Source of the DNA: a virus
IMG/VR virus record: IMGVR_UViG_3300030090_000470
Location: 1 to 61,603 of that record
Reading direction: 5' to 3' (one strand)
Length of the DNA: 61,603 nt
The position numbers were made by a program, and so were the translations under genes. This document shows, in pieces, positions 1-45,016 of the stretch; position 1 is the stretch's first letter; each line of letters opens with the position of its first letter. A model generated the notes under the pieces. It worked only from the letters and a program-made list of their open reading frames with translations. It made no database searches and was not told where the DNA came from.

Positions 1-128
1 GCATTATCATCTTCTCGCAATTCAATAAAAACTGAATCGCCGACTTCCATATCGCCCCATGCGTATTGTGAACCTCTGCCCCTGATATCTTCAGGGATAG
101 GAACTCCTTTTTCTATATTAAATTTCAT
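1..128 (-). CDS. Conserved small phage protein, partial duplicate copy (cut by the window edge)
   Basis: This is the first 42 codons of the same gene found complete at 61298-61588. It appears twice only because the contig ends overlap. The ATG at 126-128 overlaps the stop codon of the preceding gene (TAATG), indicating translational coupling. The reading runs off base 1. On a circularised map this copy should be merged with the right-hand one and not counted as a second gene. Confidence 0.85.
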   Translation of the reverse strand, partial: MKFNIEKGVPIPEDIRGRGSQYAWGDMEVGDSVFIELREDDN

Positions 129-143
129 TAGTGTATATCCTCG
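1..143. repeat. Terminal direct repeat, left copy
   Basis: These 143 bases match positions 61461-61603 except at position 78 (G here, A at 61538). A repeat at both ends of a contig usually marks a circular assembly of a circularly permuted genome, or a true direct terminal repeat. The mismatch means the two ends come from different variants, or one base is a sequencing error. The repeat covers the start of a small gene and the first bases downstream of it. Confidence 0.95.
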
Positions 144-346
144 ATTTTAATAAGTTTATTATCTTCTAAGTATTTTTTCCAAAACATAAAGACTAGAGCG
201 GGGTCGTTGACCCCCTCTAGTTGCTCACAGCCTTGTGCTATCATAAGGTCGGCTAGCTCTTGTGCTAGCTCATTCTCATGTGCTTTGCTGAATACAGCTT
301 CCCATAGTCTACCTAGTAGATTCGCAGGTATTCTATATTCGTCCAC
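128..346 (-). CDS. Small hypothetical protein (72 aa)
   Basis: A 72-residue, mildly acidic, probably helical protein with no family I recognise. The start is a GTG at 344-346 that overlaps the TAG of the DUF932 gene in the sequence TAGTG, and its own TAA overlaps the next ATG. It therefore sits in a tightly coupled three-gene string reading from 1371 across the circle junction. It may depend on the DUF932 gene for translation. Function unknown. Confidence 0.7.
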   Translation of the reverse strand: MDEYRIPANLLGRLWEAVFSKAHENELAQELADLMIAQGCEQLEGVNDPALVFMFWKKYLEDNKLIKIEDIH

Positions 347-1371
347 TATGCCGCCCTCGATAGAGCCATATCTAGTGCTTTAGCTTTTCTATTAGCTCCT
401 GCACCAAACCAAGCACTATGTAAAGCATTACCTTTTACTTGCGAAGTCCTAAGGTGGTCTTCGACATAGGTAACAGCATTAAATGCACCCCACCATGTTT
501 CTTTAGCTGATTTAAGGTTTGCACCTGGAGAGTTGTAATACCCTTCCATAGCTAATGCAGGGAACTTATTAAGTTTCTCCGCTAATGGTTCTTGTATACC
601 GACTGCTTTACCTTCTGAACGTAATTTTTCTTCTAGTTTATATTGCATAAGCATATCTGGTTGATATATTTCTGCAACGTAATCTATTACGTCAGAATGT
701 TTAGCTTTCGCTTTAGATAGAGTTGTAGCATATTGCTGAAACTCTTGCATTTTAGATTTAGATAAACCTAGTGCCTCTTCTGCAGTTTTAACAACTTGGT
801 CATTGAAATCTCTAACATGCGGCACTCTAAAGTGATTACCTGCTTGTTCTAGAGCCAATGTAAGTGTGTTATTACAAACTACTCTTATAGGCGTTAGTTT
901 TATCGTCATCGATTTACCTGCTACGTGTGGTTGATTAATTAAGAGATAACCTCCTATTTCATCACCACCAGCAAGTTCAAAGTCATCTGAGATTTTAGCT
1001 AAACCCCAAATTTCTTTACCGTTTCTTAAACTACCTGCAGTTTCCATGGTCATATCACCAGCTTCTGTAAAGCGTTTAAAAAACTCAAATACCCTCTCGT
1101 TTTGGAAAGGAACATAGTTCTTCCCGCAATGCGAAAGTATTGTATTGTCGCTGTCACGAACAATATGGTAGGTATCTTCAGCTTGAATTAACCCCACGTT
1201 GTCGCTCCAGTCTGGAGTATCGATAGTGTAGCTTGGACGTTTACTAACAGTCCAGTTTAACTCTGCCGCCTCCAACATTTGCAATGGCGTAAGATTAGAC
1301 TCTACCTTAACACCTAGTTTGTGCCAAGGGACATCGTTTGCCCACGCTATTGTTTCTATATTATGTGCCAT
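346..1371 (-). CDS. DUF932 / phage-plasmid-like protein (TIGR03299 family)
   Basis: This 341-residue protein has the hallmarks of the DUF932 family found in many phages and plasmids: an early segment with PWHKLG (residues 15-20), a central SMTIKLTPIRVVCNNTL stretch around residue 155-170, and a helical C-terminal third. The length is normal for the family. The biochemical role is unknown. An early accessory role is usually assumed because the genes sit among small early genes, as here. It has a good Shine-Dalgarno (AGAAAGGAGA) and its own early-type promoter at 1428-1456. It heads an operon with the 72-aa gene and the small gene spanning the contig junction. Confidence 0.9.
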   Translation of the reverse strand: MAHNIETIAWANDVPWHKLGVKVESNLTPLQMLEAAELNWTVSKRPSYTIDTPDWSDNVGLIQAEDTYHIVRDSDNTILSHCGKNYVPFQNERVFEFFKRFTEAGDMTMETAGSLRNGKEIWGLAKISDDFELAGGDEIGGYLLINQPHVAGKSMTIKLTPIRVVCNNTLTLALEQAGNHFRVPHVRDFNDQVVKTAEEALGLSKSKMQEFQQYATTLSKAKAKHSDVIDYVAEIYQPDMLMQYKLEEKLRSEGKAVGIQEPLAEKLNKFPALAMEGYYNSPGANLKSAKETWWGAFNAVTYVEDHLRTSQVKGNALHSAWFGAGANRKAKALDMALSRAA

Positions 1372-5455: not shown

Positions 5456-6484
5456 TTATTCTCCTTTTTCCGCATGGTTATTTCTACGCTCTTCTCGGGT
5501 GCGGAGCCAACTAAGACAAGCGTTTTTCCAATCTTTTGGAATTATATAATCACAGTGTGCGTATGCTTCCTCATACTTTCCTGATTTATATAAATAATAA
5601 GTAATTGCCATAGGCACTGCAATATCTCTATAACAGGGGTTTACCCAATTAGCAGCACCTATGATATCTGCAGGGTGGTAATTAAAAAATCTATCGTGTT
5701 CCCAGTCTAAACAATCATGTTCTATAAATAAATCACTAGATTGGTAATTAGAAAATGTTTCGTAAATATTTTCAAAAGGTGTATAAACATCTATAGATAA
5801 ATGTTTAACTTTATCCCATACCTCGTTAAGATAGACATGAAAACTATCACTAACTTGTCGATATACGCCAACGGGTACACCAAGTCTATGTGCAACAAGT
5901 TCTTGTAGCACTGACATATGTACCACGTTAGCACCATACGCACCCCATAGCATATCGTTAGACCTATTACAAACAGTCATATTTAATTTATTATCTCTTA
6001 TCTTAAAATAAATATTAGTATTACAAGGCACGTCTTTACTGACTCTAGCTAAATCTTTATTTGGGTCCCACATCTGTAATACTGCACGTCTATCGTCTGG
6101 GTTTTCTTTAAGAAGTTTTACAATCATGTCTATTTGGTCTTTATGAAAATATTTTCTCCACCTATAACCATAAGCACCCCACAAAGTTTCTCCGTTATCT
6201 GAAAAGTCAGACATACTTGCAACATAATAAGTTAATGATTTTAAATCGTTTCTGCCTGCTAACATCCACATGCTCTCTATAAAGTGAAAGAAAGGATTTG
6301 CATCTCTTGCTTCTATAAGACATACTCTTTCTGTTGGTTTTAAATAAACAGTAGTGACAGGGTCAACACATTCTAATGTTTTACCGTTTCTACTATCTTG
6401 TTCGATATAATTTGTTTCATCTTGAAATAAATCAATGCCTCTTAAAATAGCGTCGTTTACGTTTCTAACTTTTATTACTCTCAT
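5456..6484 (-). CDS. ThyA-family protein: thymidylate synthase or dUMP hydroxymethylase
   Basis: A 342-residue ThyA-fold enzyme, longer than the usual 264. Catalytic Cys154 sits in DVPCN, paired arginines at R132-R133 match the phosphate-binding pair, and R174-S175 and D177 match the RSxD site. N186 in GAYGAN replaces the conserved Asn that reads uracil, so the substrate should be dUMP rather than dCMP. An F/HVY segment near residue 216 carries the H and Y that bind deoxyribose. It could make dTMP or, as in hypermodifying phages, 5-hydroxymethyl-dUMP; motif inspection cannot separate these. The next gene is a thymine-hypermodification family protein, which favours the second reading. It overlaps that gene by four bases. 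Confidence 0.88.
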   Translation of the reverse strand: MRVIKVRNVNDAILRGIDLFQDETNYIEQDSRNGKTLECVDPVTTVYLKPTERVCLIEARDANPFFHFIESMWMLAGRNDLKSLTYYVASMSDFSDNGETLWGAYGYRWRKYFHKDQIDMIVKLLKENPDDRRAVLQMWDPNKDLARVSKDVPCNTNIYFKIRDNKLNMTVCNRSNDMLWGAYGANVVHMSVLQELVAHRLGVPVGVYRQVSDSFHVYLNEVWDKVKHLSIDVYTPFENIYETFSNYQSSDLFIEHDCLDWEHDRFFNYHPADIIGAANWVNPCYRDIAVPMAITYYLYKSGKYEEAYAHCDYIIPKDWKNACLSWLRTREERRNNHAEKGE

Positions 6485-7380
6485 ACACCCTCCACTAATG
6501 GTAAATTTTCATTATAATTATACATAGACCTCGTTCTCCCCTCTCCTTTATAAATACGAGAATACTTATCAAACTCACATAGACCACCCTCTATTTCTCT
6601 CATCTCATAAGGCAAATCATTTCTAAAAGTTATGTGCACTGGTAGTTCTTGTATTGCTATATCGTATAGAGCTACCATTTCACTACACCAATCATGACTA
6701 CGCTGACAAAAATCTAATGGTCTACCTGTTAATCTATTTAGTCCTCGCATAGCTCCTGGACCTGCATTAGCCCATGAATATCTATCGTTTGCTCCTTGTA
6801 GTAGGTAAGTAAATCTTAAATCTGTAACAACTTCGTACGCCATGAACGGTCCCATATATGGATATTCTCGTAATAAATTCCAACAATACTCTAAAGAGCT
6901 TTCGTTATTATCTCTACGTTTTACAAGTTTTTTTATCATATAATCTTTACGTTCCCACATATGAGTTATACATTCCGCTACACCTGTAACTTTGTCCATA
7001 CCGTTTGGGGACTTTACTATATACGCTCCTGTAACCCATTTATCTTGTTTAGTTATTTCTTCTATCGCTTTTTTCCTATCCCAATTTTTAAGTAGGTCGT
7101 TTTTTATTAACGTTCTGCCTGTGGGTATCCAATTAAACCAACGGAAAATAACCGTAGCCATAAGTACGTCATTGTCTTCACGCATAGGCTCTCGTATATG
7201 TTTTTTAAACCAACGAGTTGTTCTGTCTTCTTCGCGAAAAACTTGACAGAACTTATATTGCTGAAGTATAGGGTCATCAGTCCAAGGAGGTGGGAAGTTC
7301 TGGACTTCTTTTTGTAGTCTGATGTTTTCCCTCTCTACTTGCCAATACAAGTACCTATCAAGTTCCTCTTGAATAAACAT
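6481..7380 (-). CDS. Thymine hypermodification protein (HMUDK helical / aGPT-Pplase-like domain)
   Basis: 299 residues with the signature of the helical domain shared by phage 5-hydroxymethyl-dU DNA kinases and alpha-glutamyl/putrescinyl-thymine pyrophosphorylases. The signature is PPPWTDDPILQQYKF near residues 30-45 followed by VFREEDRTTRW (47-57), then the FRWFN helix and the WANAGPGAMRGL stretch near residue 205. No P-loop is visible, so this is the helical-domain-only form and not the kinase. In the known systems these proteins act on 5-hydroxymethyl-uracil or its pyrophosphorylated form in polymerised DNA. It is coupled to the ThyA homologue (four-base overlap) and to a methyltransferase (one-base overlap). 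I am confident of the family and less so of the exact reaction. Confidence 0.8.
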   Translation of the reverse strand: MFIQEELDRYLYWQVERENIRLQKEVQNFPPPWTDDPILQQYKFCQVFREEDRTTRWFKKHIREPMREDNDVLMATVIFRWFNWIPTGRTLIKNDLLKNWDRKKAIEEITKQDKWVTGAYIVKSPNGMDKVTGVAECITHMWERKDYMIKKLVKRRDNNESSLEYCWNLLREYPYMGPFMAYEVVTDLRFTYLLQGANDRYSWANAGPGAMRGLNRLTGRPLDFCQRSHDWCSEMVALYDIAIQELPVHITFRNDLPYEMREIEGGLCEFDKYSRIYKGEGRTRSMYNYNENLPLVEGV

Positions 7381-8219
7381 TACTTTTTACGCAACACCCA
7401 TGAACAGTTATTCGCTACTTCTGGATAAAATGTAGCCGCAACAACTCTTAAAAATTGTCTGCCGTATCTATTTTCTAACATATTAAATTGTTGTGGAGTC
7501 CATCCCACATTAGGAATTTTCATAGCTTTCTTTAAATTAGGCATTTGTATAAATGTTCCTGTAACAGCTTCTATAGTAAAGTTTCTTTCTAATTCATCTT
7601 TTAATTCTTGAAAACCCCACTCATATACGTGGTCTTCAGGTAGCTTATCGTTAGAGCCGTCGTGGTTAGGTGTAGACACAAAACCCAAAGCTCCAGGACG
7701 CATCACCCTAGCTACATCATCAAGCCATGGAGCTATAAACTGTCTACCCATATGTTCAATAACTTCAGTAGACCAAAAGAAATCTATACTTTCGTCCTCT
7801 AATTTAAATACAGGGTCGACTGTTAAATCTTGAATTACTATTGTTGGATTAAAATTCTGAAACCATGTAGATTCCATAATCTTACCTCCTGCGTTTGACC
7901 AATAAGGTAATTCCATTTCACAGGCAGGGTCTATATCAGTGCCATAAAAAGAAGCTATAACATCTGTCTTTTTAATAACATACGCTTTATATAGACTTCT
8001 TAAAGCCCAACACTCACCGCAACCCACCTCAAAGGTGTTAAGCGGTCTGCCTAATCTTTTTGCTTCTTCTATACATAAAGAAGCTATTTTATCAAAACGA
8101 CTCATATGAGCTATCTCATCTGGTCGCCAGTTAGCTAATACACCCGCACTAGCTATATCCATTCTTGTGTTTTTACTGTCGTTTTCATTGACAAGTAATT
8201 TTTTTCTAATTGAAGACAT
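7380..8219 (-). CDS. Class I SAM-dependent methyltransferase
   Basis: 279 residues. Motif I (FEVGCGECWAL, around residue 60-70) and the acidic end of strand 2 (GTDID) make an AdoMet pocket. The STEVIEHM post-motif around residue 150 is typical of small-molecule and nucleotide methyltransferases of the Methyltransf_11/23 type. None of the target-base motifs of DNA adenine or cytosine methyltransferases (DPPY, PC) is present. Because it is the first gene of the operon with the thymine-hypermodification protein and the ThyA homologue, the substrate may be the modified base or a nucleotide, but that is inference. It has a strong Shine-Dalgarno and its own early promoter. Confidence 0.8.
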   Translation of the reverse strand: MSSIRKKLLVNENDSKNTRMDIASAGVLANWRPDEIAHMSRFDKIASLCIEEAKRLGRPLNTFEVGCGECWALRSLYKAYVIKKTDVIASFYGTDIDPACEMELPYWSNAGGKIMESTWFQNFNPTIVIQDLTVDPVFKLEDESIDFFWSTEVIEHMGRQFIAPWLDDVARVMRPGALGFVSTPNHDGSNDKLPEDHVYEWGFQELKDELERNFTIEAVTGTFIQMPNLKKAMKIPNVGWTPQQFNMLENRYGRQFLRVVAATFYPEVANNCSWVLRKK

Positions 8220-23733: not shown

Positions 23734-25467
23734 TCAAAAAGTATATATTATTAAAGGTTTTTCTTTACCTTTTACTTTTATAGGTTTTACTGATTTTAGG
23801 TGATGACCGCAATATTTTTCAGTTTCTTCACCTATTAGTATGTTTACACCTGCTTCTTTTGTAGCTGATTCTAGTCTAGCAGCAGTATTTACAGCATCTC
23901 CGATAGCACTATAATCGAACCTTGTATCACTACCCATATTACCAATTACAGCTTCTCCTGTATTTACACCAACACCTATAGCCACTCCTATATTAGCTTT
24001 TTCTATATTTTCTTGTATTTCTTTAGCACATTCTACAGCCACCTGTTCATGGTGTGGTAAATCTAATGGTGCATTAAATATAGCCATCATTGCATCACCG
24101 ATATATTTATCGACCATACCATTGTATTTTTTGACAGCCTCTGATTGTATCGTAAGTGCTTTATTCATTATTTTAGTAACTTCTTCAGGTTCTAATTTTT
24201 CAGATAATGCAGTAAACCCTCTAACATCAGTAAATAAAAAAGTACATCTTCTTTTTTCTCCACCTAGTTTTAATAAATTTGGGTCTTTTTGTAAACGTTT
24301 TACTTGTCGTGGGTCTAAATAATGTTCAAACTGTTTCTTAATTTGTAAACGTAATTTATATTGTTCTCTGAATCTAAGGTAAAAAGCCACACTACCTGAG
24401 ATAAATTGACTTATTAAAGACCAAGTTACATCTATTAAAACACCTGTACCTATCGTATAAGCCCCGTATAAGCCCGTTAAAGCCATAGTTAATAAACCTA
24501 AGGTTATGCCCCAAGTTATTCCTAAATAGCTTATAAACGCCCATACTAGCCCCACAGATACTAAAAATATAAATAGTTCTACTGATAAAGCGTAATCGGG
24601 TATATAAGGGCTATTTTGTATAAGTATCGATTCTGCTAATGCTGCTTGTATTTTATGTGGCTCAACTAATCCAACGGGAGTTGCTATTTGCGGCATAACA
24701 CCATTAGCAGTAACACCAACAAAAACAAACTTACCGTTTACATTCATTTCTTGTAAATCTGTTTCTTCTGTTTCTACCCATGATATCCATTTACGACCGA
24801 AGCTATCTGTTTTCACAGGTGGTAATCCTCTAACTGCTATTTCTTGTACACCGTTATCATTAGTGGTAACTATATATGTAGGTGTATCTGTTAGTATTTT
24901 TAATACTTGCGTTCCGAATGAAGCCGACCAACCGTCAGGCGTTTTTAATAAGAGAGGGATTCTTCTGACAAGTTGGTCAACTTCTGTAGGTGCAATAGCA
25001 ATACCTTGTGGTATATCATCATACTTATTATAATTTTGTTTTATTCCTGAAGAAAGTATACCACCAACATCAGGTCCTCTAATAACAGTGCCTGTGGTTT
25101 TAGGATATTTACCACTACCATTTTCGAAAGTAGCTAAAACACTAGGAGCATAACCTAATGAACTAGCAAATCTTGCATCTCCTCCCATTCTATCTGCTTG
25201 TGGAAAAGATATTACCCAACCAACACCCATAGCTCCTGCACCTAATAATTCTATTTGTATATCAGCTAAGCGTTCTCTAGGCAATGGATAACCGCCTTCT
25301 TTTTCTACATCTTCTTCTGTTATATTCAGTATTACAAAGTTGCCGCTAGGCTCAGGTGTTTTGATAAATGCATCAAAAGTTTTAAGTTTCAATATTTCTG
25401 TTGGGGTGCTTTGAAATATTAAAGGCACGGCTAATAATGGTAATAATAAAAGTATTAGTTTTTTCAT
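23734..25467 (-). CDS. CHASE2-domain class III adenylate cyclase
   Basis: 577 residues: an N-terminal membrane anchor (1-20), a CHASE2 sensor on the outer side of the membrane (about 25-285), three membrane segments (about 294-312, 316-336, 345-363), a linker helix, and a class III cyclase domain (about 405-577). Metal aspartates D414 (FTDVRGF) and D458 (YIGDAMM), adenine-selecting K454 and D518, and transition-state N527 and R531 (NTAARLE) are all present, so it should convert ATP to cAMP. It is a full-length bacterial-type receptor and not a fragment. It is the last gene of the curli cassette; its ATG overlaps the FecR stop (ATGA). The host or phage signal it senses is unknown. Confidence 0.95.
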   Translation of the reverse strand: MKKLILLLLPLLAVPLIFQSTPTEILKLKTFDAFIKTPEPSGNFVILNITEEDVEKEGGYPLPRERLADIQIELLGAGAMGVGWVISFPQADRMGGDARFASSLGYAPSVLATFENGSGKYPKTTGTVIRGPDVGGILSSGIKQNYNKYDDIPQGIAIAPTEVDQLVRRIPLLLKTPDGWSASFGTQVLKILTDTPTYIVTTNDNGVQEIAVRGLPPVKTDSFGRKWISWVETEETDLQEMNVNGKFVFVGVTANGVMPQIATPVGLVEPHKIQAALAESILIQNSPYIPDYALSVELFIFLVSVGLVWAFISYLGITWGITLGLLTMALTGLYGAYTIGTGVLIDVTWSLISQFISGSVAFYLRFREQYKLRLQIKKQFEHYLDPRQVKRLQKDPNLLKLGGEKRRCTFLFTDVRGFTALSEKLEPEEVTKIMNKALTIQSEAVKKYNGMVDKYIGDAMMAIFNAPLDLPHHEQVAVECAKEIQENIEKANIGVAIGVGVNTGEAVIGNMGSDTRFDYSAIGDAVNTAARLESATKEAGVNILIGEETEKYCGHHLKSVKPIKVKGKEKPLIIYTF

Positions 25468-26579
25468 CCGCTACCTTGTCTTATGGTAATAGTAGAATCA
25501 CCACCACCATTTATTTTTATTATATTAGAAACACCGTCTTGTATCAAAATAACTGTATAACCAGCACCAGAATTTAAATCGACCTGAGCCGACTCACTAA
25601 CTTTTCTACGTAAACTAACAGTTTGTCCTGTTACTATCGTTGTTATTTGCGTATCAGAATCTTGTCCTATCGACGTACCTGTTATATTTATACCCGTAGC
25701 TAATGCTAATTGGTCTTCTTCGTCTTCTATAGCTAAAGCATCAAGAACATTTAATAAATCTTCTAAAAAATTAACATCGAGATAATTAATATCTAATTCT
25801 GTAAATTCTAAACTATTATCTTCTAAAAAATCTTCTGCTAAATAATCTATATCTAAATCATTAAAATCTAGTAAGTTAACTGTTTTAGTGCTTGCTGTTT
25901 CTTCTTGTAAAACATCGTCTTCTTGAGGCGGAGATACTATAAGCATATTATCAATAATATCTAGTGATAAATCTAATATCACAGGTTTACTGGGTGCGTT
26001 TTCGAACACATCAACAGTTGTAGCTTGATATGGTTTATTTAATAGAACACTTCCTGTAGCTGTTACTACTTCTATTTCGCCACTAGATAGTCCTAATGCA
26101 TCAGGTAATAAAATTATTAAACTACGCCCTAGCTCATCTACGGTAGCAGTAAAATCAGTCCCACGAATCGCAATATTTGCAGTGGGAGTAGTAAGTTTTA
26201 TATTTTGTTTATCTATACGGTTTAGATTACCTGTAATGAATCTAGCTGTGCCTAAAGCAAAGTTAAGGGACATTTTTGATTTACTAGGGTCTGGGTCATA
26301 GATATACTCATCTATAAGAAGTTGAGAGTGTTCAGTAAGTTTTACTATTGATTTATCTAAAAAAGTAATAGCCATACGACCATTAGTCGTTATAGCTTCA
26401 TCATTACTTTGAATAGCGAATTGTAAATTAGCGTCGTAAGATTTATCTCTTACTATTTGAGCAGAGCCGTTAAGTTCAGATATATCTCCGATATCAACAG
26501 CTTGTGCTTGTGCCTTGGTCGTTTTGAATGACACAAACAGTGCCACTATTACCGCTAGACAGAATCTTGAGCCAATCAT
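25464..26579 (-). CDS. Secreted FecR-domain protein of the curli cassette
   Basis: 371 residues: a signal peptide (1-26, ending AQAQA), a FecR domain (about 36-190) with the typical PTANIAIRGTDF segment near residue 130-141, an acidic Leu/Asp-rich middle with imperfect repeats (LDINYL, FLED), and a Gly-rich C-terminus whose last 40 residues (QDGVSNIIKINGGG...RQGSG) look like a curlin repeat. FecR domains sit in the periplasm, often as sensors or peptidoglycan-associated scaffolds, and occur in some curli loci of marine bacteria. It overlaps the curlin gene by 86 bp and the cyclase by four. Its role here may be nucleation, anchoring or sensing. Confidence 0.85.
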   Translation of the reverse strand: MIGSRFCLAVIVALFVSFKTTKAQAQAVDIGDISELNGSAQIVRDKSYDANLQFAIQSNDEAITTNGRMAITFLDKSIVKLTEHSQLLIDEYIYDPDPSKSKMSLNFALGTARFITGNLNRIDKQNIKLTTPTANIAIRGTDFTATVDELGRSLIILLPDALGLSSGEIEVVTATGSVLLNKPYQATTVDVFENAPSKPVILDLSLDIIDNMLIVSPPQEDDVLQEETASTKTVNLLDFNDLDIDYLAEDFLEDNSLEFTELDINYLDVNFLEDLLNVLDALAIEDEEDQLALATGINITGTSIGQDSDTQITTIVTGQTVSLRRKVSESAQVDLNSGAGYTVILIQDGVSNIIKINGGGDSTITIRQGSG

Positions 26580-27198
26580 TATCTAATGTACTTGATTGTG
26601 TAATGTTAAATGTTCTAGAGTTACCTGTTTGGTCTAAGTAAAAATAACCCCCCGCATAACCAGAACCTGTAAAATTGACTGTATTACTATCACCGTCCAC
26701 ATCTACATAAGAAGTACCGCCGTCATAATTTATATCGAAATCGAAAGTATTTCCATCGCCTTGAATAATCCAATCTAAATCTAATGTTGCAGCTAATGCA
26801 GTTGTTCCATGGTCTAAAGTGAATGTATTAGTACTGCCAGTAACGTTTACGTTGTAATTAGAGTTGTCTATACCATATGTATTTGTTGGGTCACCCTGTA
26901 TAGTAAATGTATTACTATCTCCATCAAACTCAAAAAAGCCTGTGATAGAATCTCCTAGAATATCGCCTAGAAATTTGTTTGTATCCCCTAACTGGTTTAT
27001 ATCAAGAGTTAATGAAATACCGTCTAAATCTAACGCAGTCAAAGAGCCTGCAGAAGAATTAAGACCGCCAATAATATTACCTGAACCAAGTTGTTCTAAA
27101 TCAATATTAGCTGTTGCCCCTGATTGGTCGACATATATCTCATTATCAGCAGCAAAAACTAATGTTGAAATTAATAATAAACTAATTAATATTTTCAT
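26494..27198 (-). CDS. Curlin-repeat protein (CsgA/CsgB-like)
   Basis: 234 residues from the ATG at 27196-27198, chosen for its GGGAGG Shine-Dalgarno six bases upstream. A signal peptide (1-17, VFAAD) is followed by curlin-like strands: a first Q-x-G-x4-N...Q-x-G-x2-N unit (25-41) and about six later G-(D/S/N)-x-N-(T/R)-(F/V) units (71-76, 93-98, 121-126, 147-152, 169-174, 192-197). The repeats are longer and more Asp-rich than in E. coli CsgA. Two cysteines (C222, C234) end the protein, unusual for curlins. It should form or nucleate extracellular amyloid. Only one such gene is present, so it may serve as both major and minor subunit. Confidence 0.82.
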   Translation of the reverse strand: MKILISLLLISTLVFAADNEIYVDQSGATANIDLEQLGSGNIIGGLNSSAGSLTALDLDGISLTLDINQLGDTNKFLGDILGDSITGFFEFDGDSNTFTIQGDPTNTYGIDNSNYNVNVTGSTNTFTLDHGTTALAATLDLDWIIQGDGNTFDFDINYDGGTSYVDVDGDSNTVNFTGSGYAGGYFYLDQTGNSRTFNITQSSTLDNDWLKILSSGNSGTVCVIQNDQGTSTSC

Positions 27199-28003
27199 CA
27201 ATTTCCTCCCAGAAACTTTTATCATACCCTATTTTGACGATTTGCAAAACAGCTTCTTCTATAGCTCGTTGTAAAGCTAATGTTGCAGGTTCGTTTTCGG
27301 CGTCTCCTGTTTCTATTTCCACAAGTTCTGTGCCTGCTTCAATAAACTTAAAAACGTCTTGAGACTGACCATAACTATATAATTGTTTACTAACTAAAAC
27401 GTCTATTAAAACTTCTCCTGTCGCTACAGATACCATACGTAAAGCTACTGTAATATTGTCTACTCTATATTGTTTACTTGTTCCTATACCTAAATATCTA
27501 GCTCCGATACCTCCACTTTGAATATTTGTATCAAAACCAATAACGGCTCCTTCCATCAACACGCCTGCAAAAAGCAAAGGCATAATGGGTTTAGGTCCAT
27601 CAGTTTTTTCGTTTTGTTCTCTAGCGGAACGTATTAATTGTCTTTCTTTCGTTAAATTATCAAGACCAACTCTTTCAGCTACTCTGAAAAACTTTCCATT
27701 AGACGTATGTTTTAAACTTCTAATAAGTAGGTGGCTTGGTGCTTGCGTAAGTGCTGTGGAAAATAAAGCAAATTCACTGTTACTTTTACGCTGACCTGTT
27801 TGGTCTGTAAAACTATTAGGATAAACAGCAACAACAATAGGAACTTTAGGCTGTGCTATATTTAATAATTCTTCGGATTGGATTTCTAAAATAGTCGGTA
27901 AAGTTTTACCTTGTTGTATAGTAGTATCTACAGGAGCTAAGCTGCAACTAGAAAGAAAAATCGCCAACAGGCAACTGTATCTCGGTAATATTTCCATCAG
28001 CAT
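27182..28003 (-). CDS. csgG: CsgG, curli secretion channel lipoprotein
   Basis: 273 residues, close to E. coli CsgG in length. The signal peptide ends in a lipobox (LSSC, lipidated C20). Conserved blocks follow: DQTGQ (67-71), FSTA (81-84), ERxxIRxA (120-127), EGAVIGFDTN (151-160), SGGIGARYLGIG (163-174) and ATGEVL (194-199). CsgG forms a nonameric outer-membrane pore for curlin export. The phenylalanine of the constriction is kept (F81), but the residue before it is Leu where E. coli has Asn, and the Tyr51-equivalent site is Ser or Asn. It overlaps csgF by 56 bp and the curlin gene by 17. Confidence 0.96.
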   Translation of the reverse strand: MLMEILPRYSCLLAIFLSSCSLAPVDTTIQQGKTLPTILEIQSEELLNIAQPKVPIVVAVYPNSFTDQTGQRKSNSEFALFSTALTQAPSHLLIRSLKHTSNGKFFRVAERVGLDNLTKERQLIRSAREQNEKTDGPKPIMPLLFAGVLMEGAVIGFDTNIQSGGIGARYLGIGTSKQYRVDNITVALRMVSVATGEVLIDVLVSKQLYSYGQSQDVFKFIEAGTELVEIETGDAENEPATLALQRAIEEAVLQIVKIGYDKSFWEEIDENIN

Positions 28004-28433
28004 CTGTTATTTTGAGAGTTATGATTCCATTTTCAATACTATATTCTATAGTGTTTCCCTCTAGGGTCAAAGTCCCTTCTGTGCTAGGAGTTTCTCCGAA
28101 TAAATTTTCTACTAATTGTCTTGATAATTGTGCATAGATTCGTGACTCAAGATTCCTTATAAATCTAGCTAATGTAGTATTTTCTTTATCTCTTTCTATT
28201 TGTTCTTGTATAGCTTTTAATTCTTCTTTGATACTCATTTTACGATTAAACTCTTGATTTTCTATCGTTAAATAATGTGAAGAAGTATTAATACCATTGA
28301 AAGAAGGGTTTTTAAATTTATGAACTATTTGGTCAGCCCATAAAGGGTTTGTTAAAACTACAAGAAAAAAGAAAATACCAAGCAAGCCTGCTATCTTATA
28401 AATCCACGTATTATCAGTCTTTTCTTTGGTCAT
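27948..28433 (-). CDS. csgF: CsgF, curli channel accessory protein
   Basis: 161 residues. A hydrophobic signal segment (about 11-31, ending LWAD) precedes the CsgF N-terminal motif HKFKNPSFNGIN (38-49), which matches the FRNPNFGGNP segment that inserts in the CsgG pore. The C-terminal half repeats the family's beta pattern (NTIEYSIENGIITLKITD and NITEIQLPVG). E. coli CsgF is about 138 residues, so the middle is somewhat longer here. It couples curlin secretion to surface nucleation. It is the first gene of the cassette and overlaps the upstream membrane protein by 20 bp. Confidence 0.93.
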   Translation of the reverse strand: MTKEKTDNTWIYKIAGLLGIFFFLVVLTNPLWADQIVHKFKNPSFNGINTSSHYLTIENQEFNRKMSIKEELKAIQEQIERDKENTTLARFIRNLESRIYAQLSRQLVENLFGETPSTEGTLTLEGNTIEYSIENGIITLKITDADGNITEIQLPVGDFSF

Positions 28434-28764
28434 CTCTTTTTGCTTTAGCTATTTTACTACTATCTATTAAATTAGGTACTCCAAGTATAGTCTTAATTAA
28501 GGTATCTTGTCTAATTATTTCATTGTCTAAACTACGTACTCTATCTATTAAGGCTACTAATATACCATGTTGTGTATCTAATTTAGTACCTAATCTTTCT
28601 TCTATGGCGTTTATCTGACCTGCTACTTTTTCGTCAACAACATCTAATTTTTGTTCCATGCCGTCAACAATACGTATTACTAATTTATATATAAACCAAC
28701 CAAGACCTATTGCCGCTGCTATAGGAAAACCAACCTCTTGTATAAGTGTTACAGCTTGTTCCAT
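28414..28764 (-). CDS. Small membrane protein with N-terminal TM and coiled coil
   Basis: 116 residues: one membrane helix (about 10-28, GFPIAAAIGLGWFIYKLVI), then a long charged coiled-coil and a basic end. Very similar small proteins occur in the late regions of cyanophages and pelagiphages. A holin-like or spanin-like role has been guessed but not shown. It overlaps csgF by 20 bp and the thermonuclease by one base, so the cassette is joined to a normal phage late gene. Confidence 0.6.
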   Translation of the reverse strand: MEQAVTLIQEVGFPIAAAIGLGWFIYKLVIRIVDGMEQKLDVVDEKVAGQINAIEERLGTKLDTQHGILVALIDRVRSLDNEIIRQDTLIKTILGVPNLIDSSKIAKAKRDDQRKD

Positions 28765-29144
28765 TAATAATCACCCCAGACTTTAGTTTTCTTTCCTCCA
28801 TCATATTCCACAGCATGACCTTCTTTAATTAAAACATCGCATATATCTCTACCGTCTTCTGTATATGGGATGCCTAGAATACGACCATATTTACCTTTAC
28901 CTAAAGATTTGACCTGTATTTTACCAAGACATAATTCTTTTAACCTTTCTTTAGCAGCAAGACCTAACTTCTTTTCAGCTAAATCTCTTGTTCTACTTTC
29001 AGGCGTATCTATGCCTGCTAATCTAACACGCTGTTTATGTAATTTTACATCAAAACCTAAATCTAATGTGCAGTCGAATGTGTCGCCGTCAACAATACGT
29101 TCTAACGTTGCGTTATAAACAAACGATTCTGGTGCTTTAGCCAT
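28764..29144 (-). CDS. Thermonuclease (staphylococcal nuclease homologue)
   Basis: 126 residues, a compact SNase domain. D21 (VDGDTF), R41, D46 and E49 (VRLAGIDTPE) and R88 (KYGRILG) match the catalytic set of staphylococcal nuclease (D21, R35, D40, E43, R87). No signal peptide, so it should act inside the host or be packaged. Similar genes are common in cyanophages and marine phages, where host DNA breakdown for nucleotides is the usual guess. Its ATG is 1 base after the DUF6321-like gene's stop. Confidence 0.93.
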   Translation of the reverse strand: MAKAPESFVYNATLERIVDGDTFDCTLDLGFDVKLHKQRVRLAGIDTPESRTRDLAEKKLGLAAKERLKELCLGKIQVKSLGKGKYGRILGIPYTEDGRDICDVLIKEGHAVEYDGGKKTKVWGDY

Positions 29145-44575: not shown

Positions 44576-45016
44576 TTATGATATTATAGCTTCGGGGTCA
44601 TCAACAACTGCTAGTATTTCGTCATCGTTTAGAAGTCGCATATCGCCACCTTCTATTTGAAAACGAGCACCTGCATATCTGCCGAATATAACCCAATCAC
44701 CTTTTTTACACCAAGGACCTTCTGGAAACTTAATAGTATCCGCATAAGCGTCTGGACCTAAAGCAACTACGTGACCTACAACTGTTGACAATCTTTCTTT
44801 ATCGATAGTTTGTCTAGCAAGTTGTATCCCACCTTTAGTTGTAGTAGGTAGTGTAAAAGGTAAAATTAAGATACGATACCCCGTTGGACGTGGTAACTTA
44901 TCTGCATGAGATTCGTAGTTATCTGGAGTTATAAGGTTTTCTTGGGGTTCTAATTCCCTAACTTTACCTTTACTACCAAAATTTTCTACTGTGTTTGGAA
45001 TAACTTTGTTATTCAT
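44576..45016 (-). CDS. GroES-like co-chaperonin
   Basis: 146 residues. Residues about 42-145 form a Cpn10 fold: RILILPF (48-54), a mobile loop that should contact host GroEL (TTTKGGIQLARQTIDKER, 58-75), VVGHVVALGPDA (79-90), KKGDWVIFGRYAG and a final LLNDDEILAVVDDP. It has a 40-residue N-terminal extension. Like T4 gp31, it could fit the large capsid protein to the host GroEL cage. It lies between the portal block and the scaffold and overlaps the 64-aa gene by four bases. Confidence 0.88.
   Translation of the reverse strand: MNNKVIPNTVENFGSKGKVRELEPQENLITPDNYESHADKLPRPTGYRILILPFTLPTTTKGGIQLARQTIDKERLSTVVGHVVALGPDAYADTIKFPEGPWCKKGDWVIFGRYAGARFQIEGGDMRLLNDDEILAVVDDPEAIIS

Follow-up and report, generated by a model that had tools for sequence, protein, structure and literature searches.

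The window analyzed here, that is, the whole stretch of 61,603 nucleotides of the IMG/VR virus record IMGVR_UViG_3300030090_000470, carries a curli-export module whose genes all run in one direction in the order CsgF-CsgG-curlin-FecR-cyclase (Table 1). The cyclase, the last gene of the module, is an open reading frame with no internal stops, and its start overlaps the stop codon of the FecR gene in an ATGA (positions 25464 to 25467), the link that the original prediction had described. Placing this gene in a late operon is a fair guess taken only from its position and direction. Promoter and terminator scans gave signals at chance level only.

Table 1. Features of the curli-export module and other genes of the window mentioned in the text (aa, residues of the cyclase protein).
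Feature	Position	Strand	Evidence
Thymidylate synthase-like gene, 5-hmdU DNA kinase helical-domain protein, and methyltransferase, in a row	5456..8219		
CHASE2 receptor adenylate cyclase, 577 aa	23734..25467	-	Pfam, AlphaFold2 model, Foldseek matches to CyaB, CyaC, Cya2
Cyclase, N-terminal transmembrane helix	aa ~4-22		
Cyclase, periplasmic CHASE2	aa ~21-290		
Cyclase, three transmembrane helices	aa ~293-379		
Cyclase, class III cyclase domain	aa ~400-577		
FecR-domain protein, 371 aa, N-terminal signal peptide	25464..26579	-	Pfam FecR 3.5e-10
FecR tail resembling a curlin repeat	25464..25600		Conserved in relatives
Curlin-like repeat protein, candidate fiber subunit	26494..27225	-	Weak profile matches; homology and position
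CsgG, outer-membrane curli export pore, lipoprotein signal	27182..28003	-	Pfam 2.5e-47
CsgF, curli assembly factor	27948..28433	-	Pfam 1.9e-17
116-aa protein upstream of CsgF	28414..28764	-	Conserved position in relatives
Staphylococcal-nuclease-like protein	28764..29144		8e-14
GroES-like co-chaperonin	44576..45016		Cpn10 5e-11

The cyclase had been proposed to be a full-length receptor comprising CHASE2 and a membrane region, and both the domain searches and the structure prediction agreed with this. Pfam matches to CHASE2 (aa 12 to 302; 9e-22) and Guanylate_cyc (aa 406 to 571; 6.8e-21) were found in the protein, with scores of 78.3 bits for PF05226 (CHASE2) against a cutoff of 26.3, followed by three transmembrane helices, and of 75.1 bits for PF00211 against a curated cutoff of 21.9. 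In the AlphaFold2 model (pLDDT 81), built from 40 relatives, an N-terminal helix is followed by a mixed alpha/beta periplasmic domain, by transmembrane helices at residues 293 to 314, 316 to 340, and 348 to 379, and by a cyclase fold. In Foldseek, the cyclase part matched the solved domains of CyaB, CyaC, and Cya2 with a target-normalized TM score of ca. 0.8.

Adenylyl cyclases combine an adenine-specifying Lys with Asp, Thr, or Ser, while guanylyl cyclases have Glu with Gly or Cys; Lys together with Thr or Ser is the combination found in the CyaC-like (class IIIb) adenylyl cyclases. Alignment to CyaC and Cya2 showed that the metal residues D414 and D458, together with N527 and R531, match the solved enzymes. 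Position 454 holds Lys in this protein, in CyaC, and in CyaB but Glu in the guanylyl cyclase Cya2, and residue 520, the base-specifying position, is Ser here, Thr in CyaC (and in about half of the relatives), and Gly in Cya2. The six residues listed originally (D414, K454, D458, D518, N527, and R531) are thus all where they were said to be, but the substrate-specifying role given to D518 has to be discarded, since the CyaC alignment puts this position at 520. The sequence pattern does bear out the assignment as an adenylate rather than a guanylate cyclase, and K454/S520, compared with E/G in Cya2, rules out the latter. Among 83 viral homologues, D414, K454, D458, and R531 were invariant and N527 was kept in 82; D518 and N527 were changed only in the methylophage Melnitz. 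The enzyme is very probably active, and we infer that its product would be cAMP; by extension, it would raise cAMP in the host, as first suggested. Melnitz and a contig in a Rhodobacteraceae MAG have a common altered stretch (SYD..GD.VS) in which the catalytic Asn is replaced by Ser, and the cyclase of this sublineage may be inactive or altered.

Strong purifying selection acts on the cyclase domain. In nine pairwise comparisons, its dN/dS ratio was 0.02 to 0.15, compared with 0.07 to 0.24 for the CHASE2 domain, the cyclase domain being usually the more constrained of the two. Given these values and the conservation of the catalytic residues, the enzyme is maintained, and a decayed cyclase fragment, already dismissed in the original prediction, is ruled out. 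In two of the phage loci found through CsgG, the cyclase frame is broken or shortened. In the phylogenetic tree, drawn up as the same prediction had proposed, the phage cyclases form one group (support of 98) whose neighbors are CHASE2 cyclases of Alphaproteobacteria. Within the group, the myophage cyclases are sister to the podophage ones; the neighboring alphaproteobacterial branch had a support of only 92. This topology points to an alphaproteobacterial ancestry of the gene.

As to the other genes of the module, all 36 relatives of the FecR-domain protein had a Pfam FecR match, and an alignment showed a conserved C-terminal tail (Y.V..IQDGVSN.IKINGG.DS.I.I.Q), the last part of which (IQDGVSN.IKINGG.DS.I.I.Q) resembles a curlin repeat. 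The Q.G..N motif was found in 28 of the 36 tails, against ca. 0.3 in shuffles, a comparison among sequences that are related to one another. Because of this relatedness, and because Pfam detected no Curlin_rpt in the tails, the resemblance stays a hint; such a tail could bind or nucleate the fiber. The AlphaFold2 model of FecR (pLDDT 49) was too weak for use. The curlin-like protein matched Curlin_rpt (0.065) and CsgB (0.0036), both below the Pfam/NCBIfam cutoffs, and its homologue stands where HTVC008M and Melnitz have their annotated curlin genes; the start of the gene is likely the ATG near 27198, with a signal peptide. CsgG also matched the NCBIfam model (4.8e-48), yet under that model's own cutoff. 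The 116-aa protein, found upstream of CsgF in relatives as well, has an N-terminal hydrophobic helix followed by a polar stretch that is probably a coiled coil. It matched PHROG 18771, with a weak holin hint (0.021), and gave no Pfam match, so that no histidine kinase was recognized there. The staphylococcal-nuclease-like gene upstream of the module is near it in many relatives. Neither this neighbor nor the 116-aa gene is a recognizable histidine kinase, the scan beside the module having covered these two genes and not the small ORFs at 29.1 to 30.0 kb.

The terminase (TerL) of the phage was 58% identical to that of 023Pt_psg01 (host listed as unknown), 57% to that of DSL-LC04 (listed with a gammaproteobacterial host), 53% to that of HTVC027P, and 51% to that of HTVC023P. 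The order of the structural genes (TerL, portal, GroES, and head) is the same as in 023Pt_psg01 (MW574966). Since the nearest TerL matches and the structural gene order agree, we classify the phage as an HTVC023P-type pelagipodovirus. The GroES-like co-chaperonin gene between the portal and head genes is itself present in 023Pt_psg01. Elsewhere in the window, the three genes at 5456 to 8219 are likely a thymine hypermodification cluster.

In this phage group, the linkage of the cyclase to the curli genes is near-universal. All 40 cyclase-anchored IMG/VR loci with enough upstream DNA had CsgF-CsgG-curlin-FecR, and among phage loci found independently through CsgG, FecR was present in 68 of 68 and the cyclase downstream in 53 of 53, counts that describe the nearest relatives of the window and undersample rarer arrangements in distant phages. 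The module order was conserved across protein identities of 30 to 40%, in podophages and myophages. A CsgG search of genome contigs gave only eight loci, mostly on phage-like contigs binned into MAGs. Phage contigs with the module were binned in MAGs named Maricaulis, Marinimicrobia, Flavobacteriaceae, Rhodobacteraceae, and Pelagibacter, a contamination trap for phylogenies of auxiliary metabolic genes.

The module of the window, cyclase included, is exactly the one already known from the same phage lineage and published in 2022. Wittmers et al. described it, FecR and adenylate cyclase included, in pelagimyophages as well as in nine HTVC023P-type genomes; they proposed that it came from Alphaproteobacteria and had moved from one phage family to another, and they reported its transcripts in metatranscriptomes (PMC9599517); CHASE2 is not named in the text of that paper. 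CsgG/CsgF had been noted earlier in pelagimyophages (PMC7029224) and in Melnitz (PMC9004378). The original prediction was therefore right about an intact cyclase coupled to FecR but missed its place as the last gene of a published curli (type VIII secretion) module. The window has CsgF, CsgG, a curlin-like gene, FecR, and cyclase in the same order as the published modules, in which a histidine kinase always comes first and the cyclase is often preceded by a second curlin (PMC9599517), but it has no recognizable histidine kinase in the two adjacent genes scanned and no second curlin. HTVC008M likewise ends its CsgF-CsgG-curlin module with a full-length CHASE2 cyclase (AGE60353; 35% identity over 96%), although it is a myophage, with an extra gene between FecR and a longer cyclase. 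The Melnitz cyclase (QZI94833; 32% identity) shares the module and the architecture but has S at 518 and 527 and D at 520 (HSYDVLGDSVS), so that the catalytic Asn is lost, and its host is OM43.

Outside phages, of the 20 best alphaproteobacterial loci with a CHASE2 cyclase, 6 had FecR within ca. 5 kb of it, where ca. 1% would be expected from our own estimate of ca. 4 FecR genes per genome; there was no CsgG near the CHASE2 cyclase in the alphaproteobacterial loci examined. The FecR/CHASE2 pairing has been published for cyclase clusters of Campylobacterota (PMC9239204) and for a biofilm operon of Burkholderia (PMC5192318). Like the window, alphaproteobacterial and campylobacterotal CHASE2 cyclases have a CHASE2-transmembrane-cyclase architecture and a FecR gene nearby (PMC9239204), but they are longer (mostly ca. 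615 to 840 aa) and have no CsgG within the loci read. The Burkholderia BiofilmReg operon also pairs a FecR protein with a CHASE2 sensor in biofilm control, but there CHASE2 drives a histidine kinase and not a cyclase (PMC5192318). Given this bacterial pairing of FecR with CHASE2 sensors, we interpret the module as an exporter of curli to which a FecR/CHASE2 sensor is attached, the cyclase providing the output; from its gene linkage, FecR is probably the partner of CHASE2.

We consider it probable that the protein works as a membrane-bound adenylate cyclase of class III and that its periplasmic CHASE2 domain serves as the sensor of the phage curli-export module, with FecR reporting to this domain. 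During infection, the phage would make the CsgG/CsgF outer-membrane pore and export the curlin-like fiber protein, and the periplasmic FecR protein would report the state of the envelope, the export, or the fiber to CHASE2. The signal would then pass through the three transmembrane helices and switch a homodimeric cytoplasmic cyclase, which would convert ATP into cAMP. This scheme presumes a ligand for CHASE2 and expression of the gene with the late genes. The reader of the cAMP would probably not be CRP.

This last point comes from the presumed host order. The search covered 148 genomes, selected for at least 85% completeness, of the order holding a MAG titled “Candidatus Pelagibacter”. None of them had a Crp-type HTH (HTH_Crp_2) over the cutoff or a class I cyclase. 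The single class III cyclase lay on a phage-like contig carrying the phage module, while the OmpR-type HTH used as a positive control was found in all 148. The cNMP_binding domain was detected in 14 genomes, nearly always as a weak match in an 870-aa protein that also has an acyltransferase domain. This protein, with one or more cNMP-like domains, is common to ca. 13 of the 148 genomes and is a possible cAMP-binding candidate. In the phage, the domain search gave no cNMP-binding effector at an E value of ≤1. The case for the absence of a CRP pathway in the host order is strong but not final, and if the host is SAR11, action of cAMP through CRP appears unlikely. Because no Crp-type regulator was found in the 148 genomes, the usual reading, in which cAMP is raised to act via CRP, is left with no known receptor. 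If the host order has no CRP, cAMP made by the phage enzyme could not work by way of CRP, and the published suggestion of a cyclase output that acts on the regulation of curli, as in Gammaproteobacteria, requires a different receptor as well. Separately, 40 of the 148 genomes encode a CHASE2 protein of ca. 690 aa with no cyclase; the one that was read has a C-terminal SpoIIE-type PP2C phosphatase, so that the host would have a CHASE2 receptor of its own that feeds a different output, and we rejected a host CHASE2 cyclase as the source of the phage gene.

The cyclase might instead be active in a host that is not, or not only, SAR11, namely, another marine bacterium with its own CRP, whose ordinary cAMP-CRP pathway (in biofilm or carbon control, for instance) the phage would feed. 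The host has indeed been assigned indirectly, the TerL match to DSL-LC04 carries a gammaproteobacterial host, a related module occurs in the OM43 phage Melnitz, and the GC content of the phage (35.7%) is above the 25 to 31% of the host-order loci read. However, HTVC008M, which was isolated on Pelagibacter, has the same module with an intact cyclase, and the gene order around TerL is that of an HTVC023P-type phage, so we regard such a host as unlikely.

Still less probable is that the protein persists in the curli module as a sensor or scaffold that structurally couples FecR to the inner membrane, its cyclase domain being silent or negligible. The lack of a known cAMP receptor in the host-order genomes or the phage would fit this, as would the loss of N527 in Melnitz, but a silent domain would hardly be the more constrained part of the protein or keep its catalytic residues in nearly every homologue. 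We disfavor most of all the view that the module is passive cargo recently acquired from an alphaproteobacterium and unused by the phage. It is compatible with the ancestry indicated by the phylogeny (also PMC9599517) but at odds with the strong purifying selection, with an order conserved in such divergent podophages and myophages, and with the environmental transcripts reported (PMC9599517).

Returning to an active cyclase serving as the sensor output of the module, a more tentative extension, to which we give rather less than even credence, is that the phage supplies a full outside-in cAMP input to a host that has no cyclase or CRP of its own. The trigger would be curli export or the state of FecR, and the cAMP would act through an unrecognized non-CRP receptor of the host or the phage, or by another route, for example, in lysis timing or superinfection control. 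What is new here is the CHASE2 sensor, the near-universal linkage in the phage group, the FecR/CHASE2-cyclase linkage in alphaproteobacterial chromosomes, and the unexpected picture of the host; the gene and the module themselves were known, and the value of the finding lies in the unexplained readout. Pelagiphages infect a cell type that is among the most abundant on Earth, and nearly all members of this phage group carry the curli module with its cyclase. An intact and constrained CHASE2 cyclase, set against a likely host order without CRP, raises the sharp question of what reads the cAMP of the phage.
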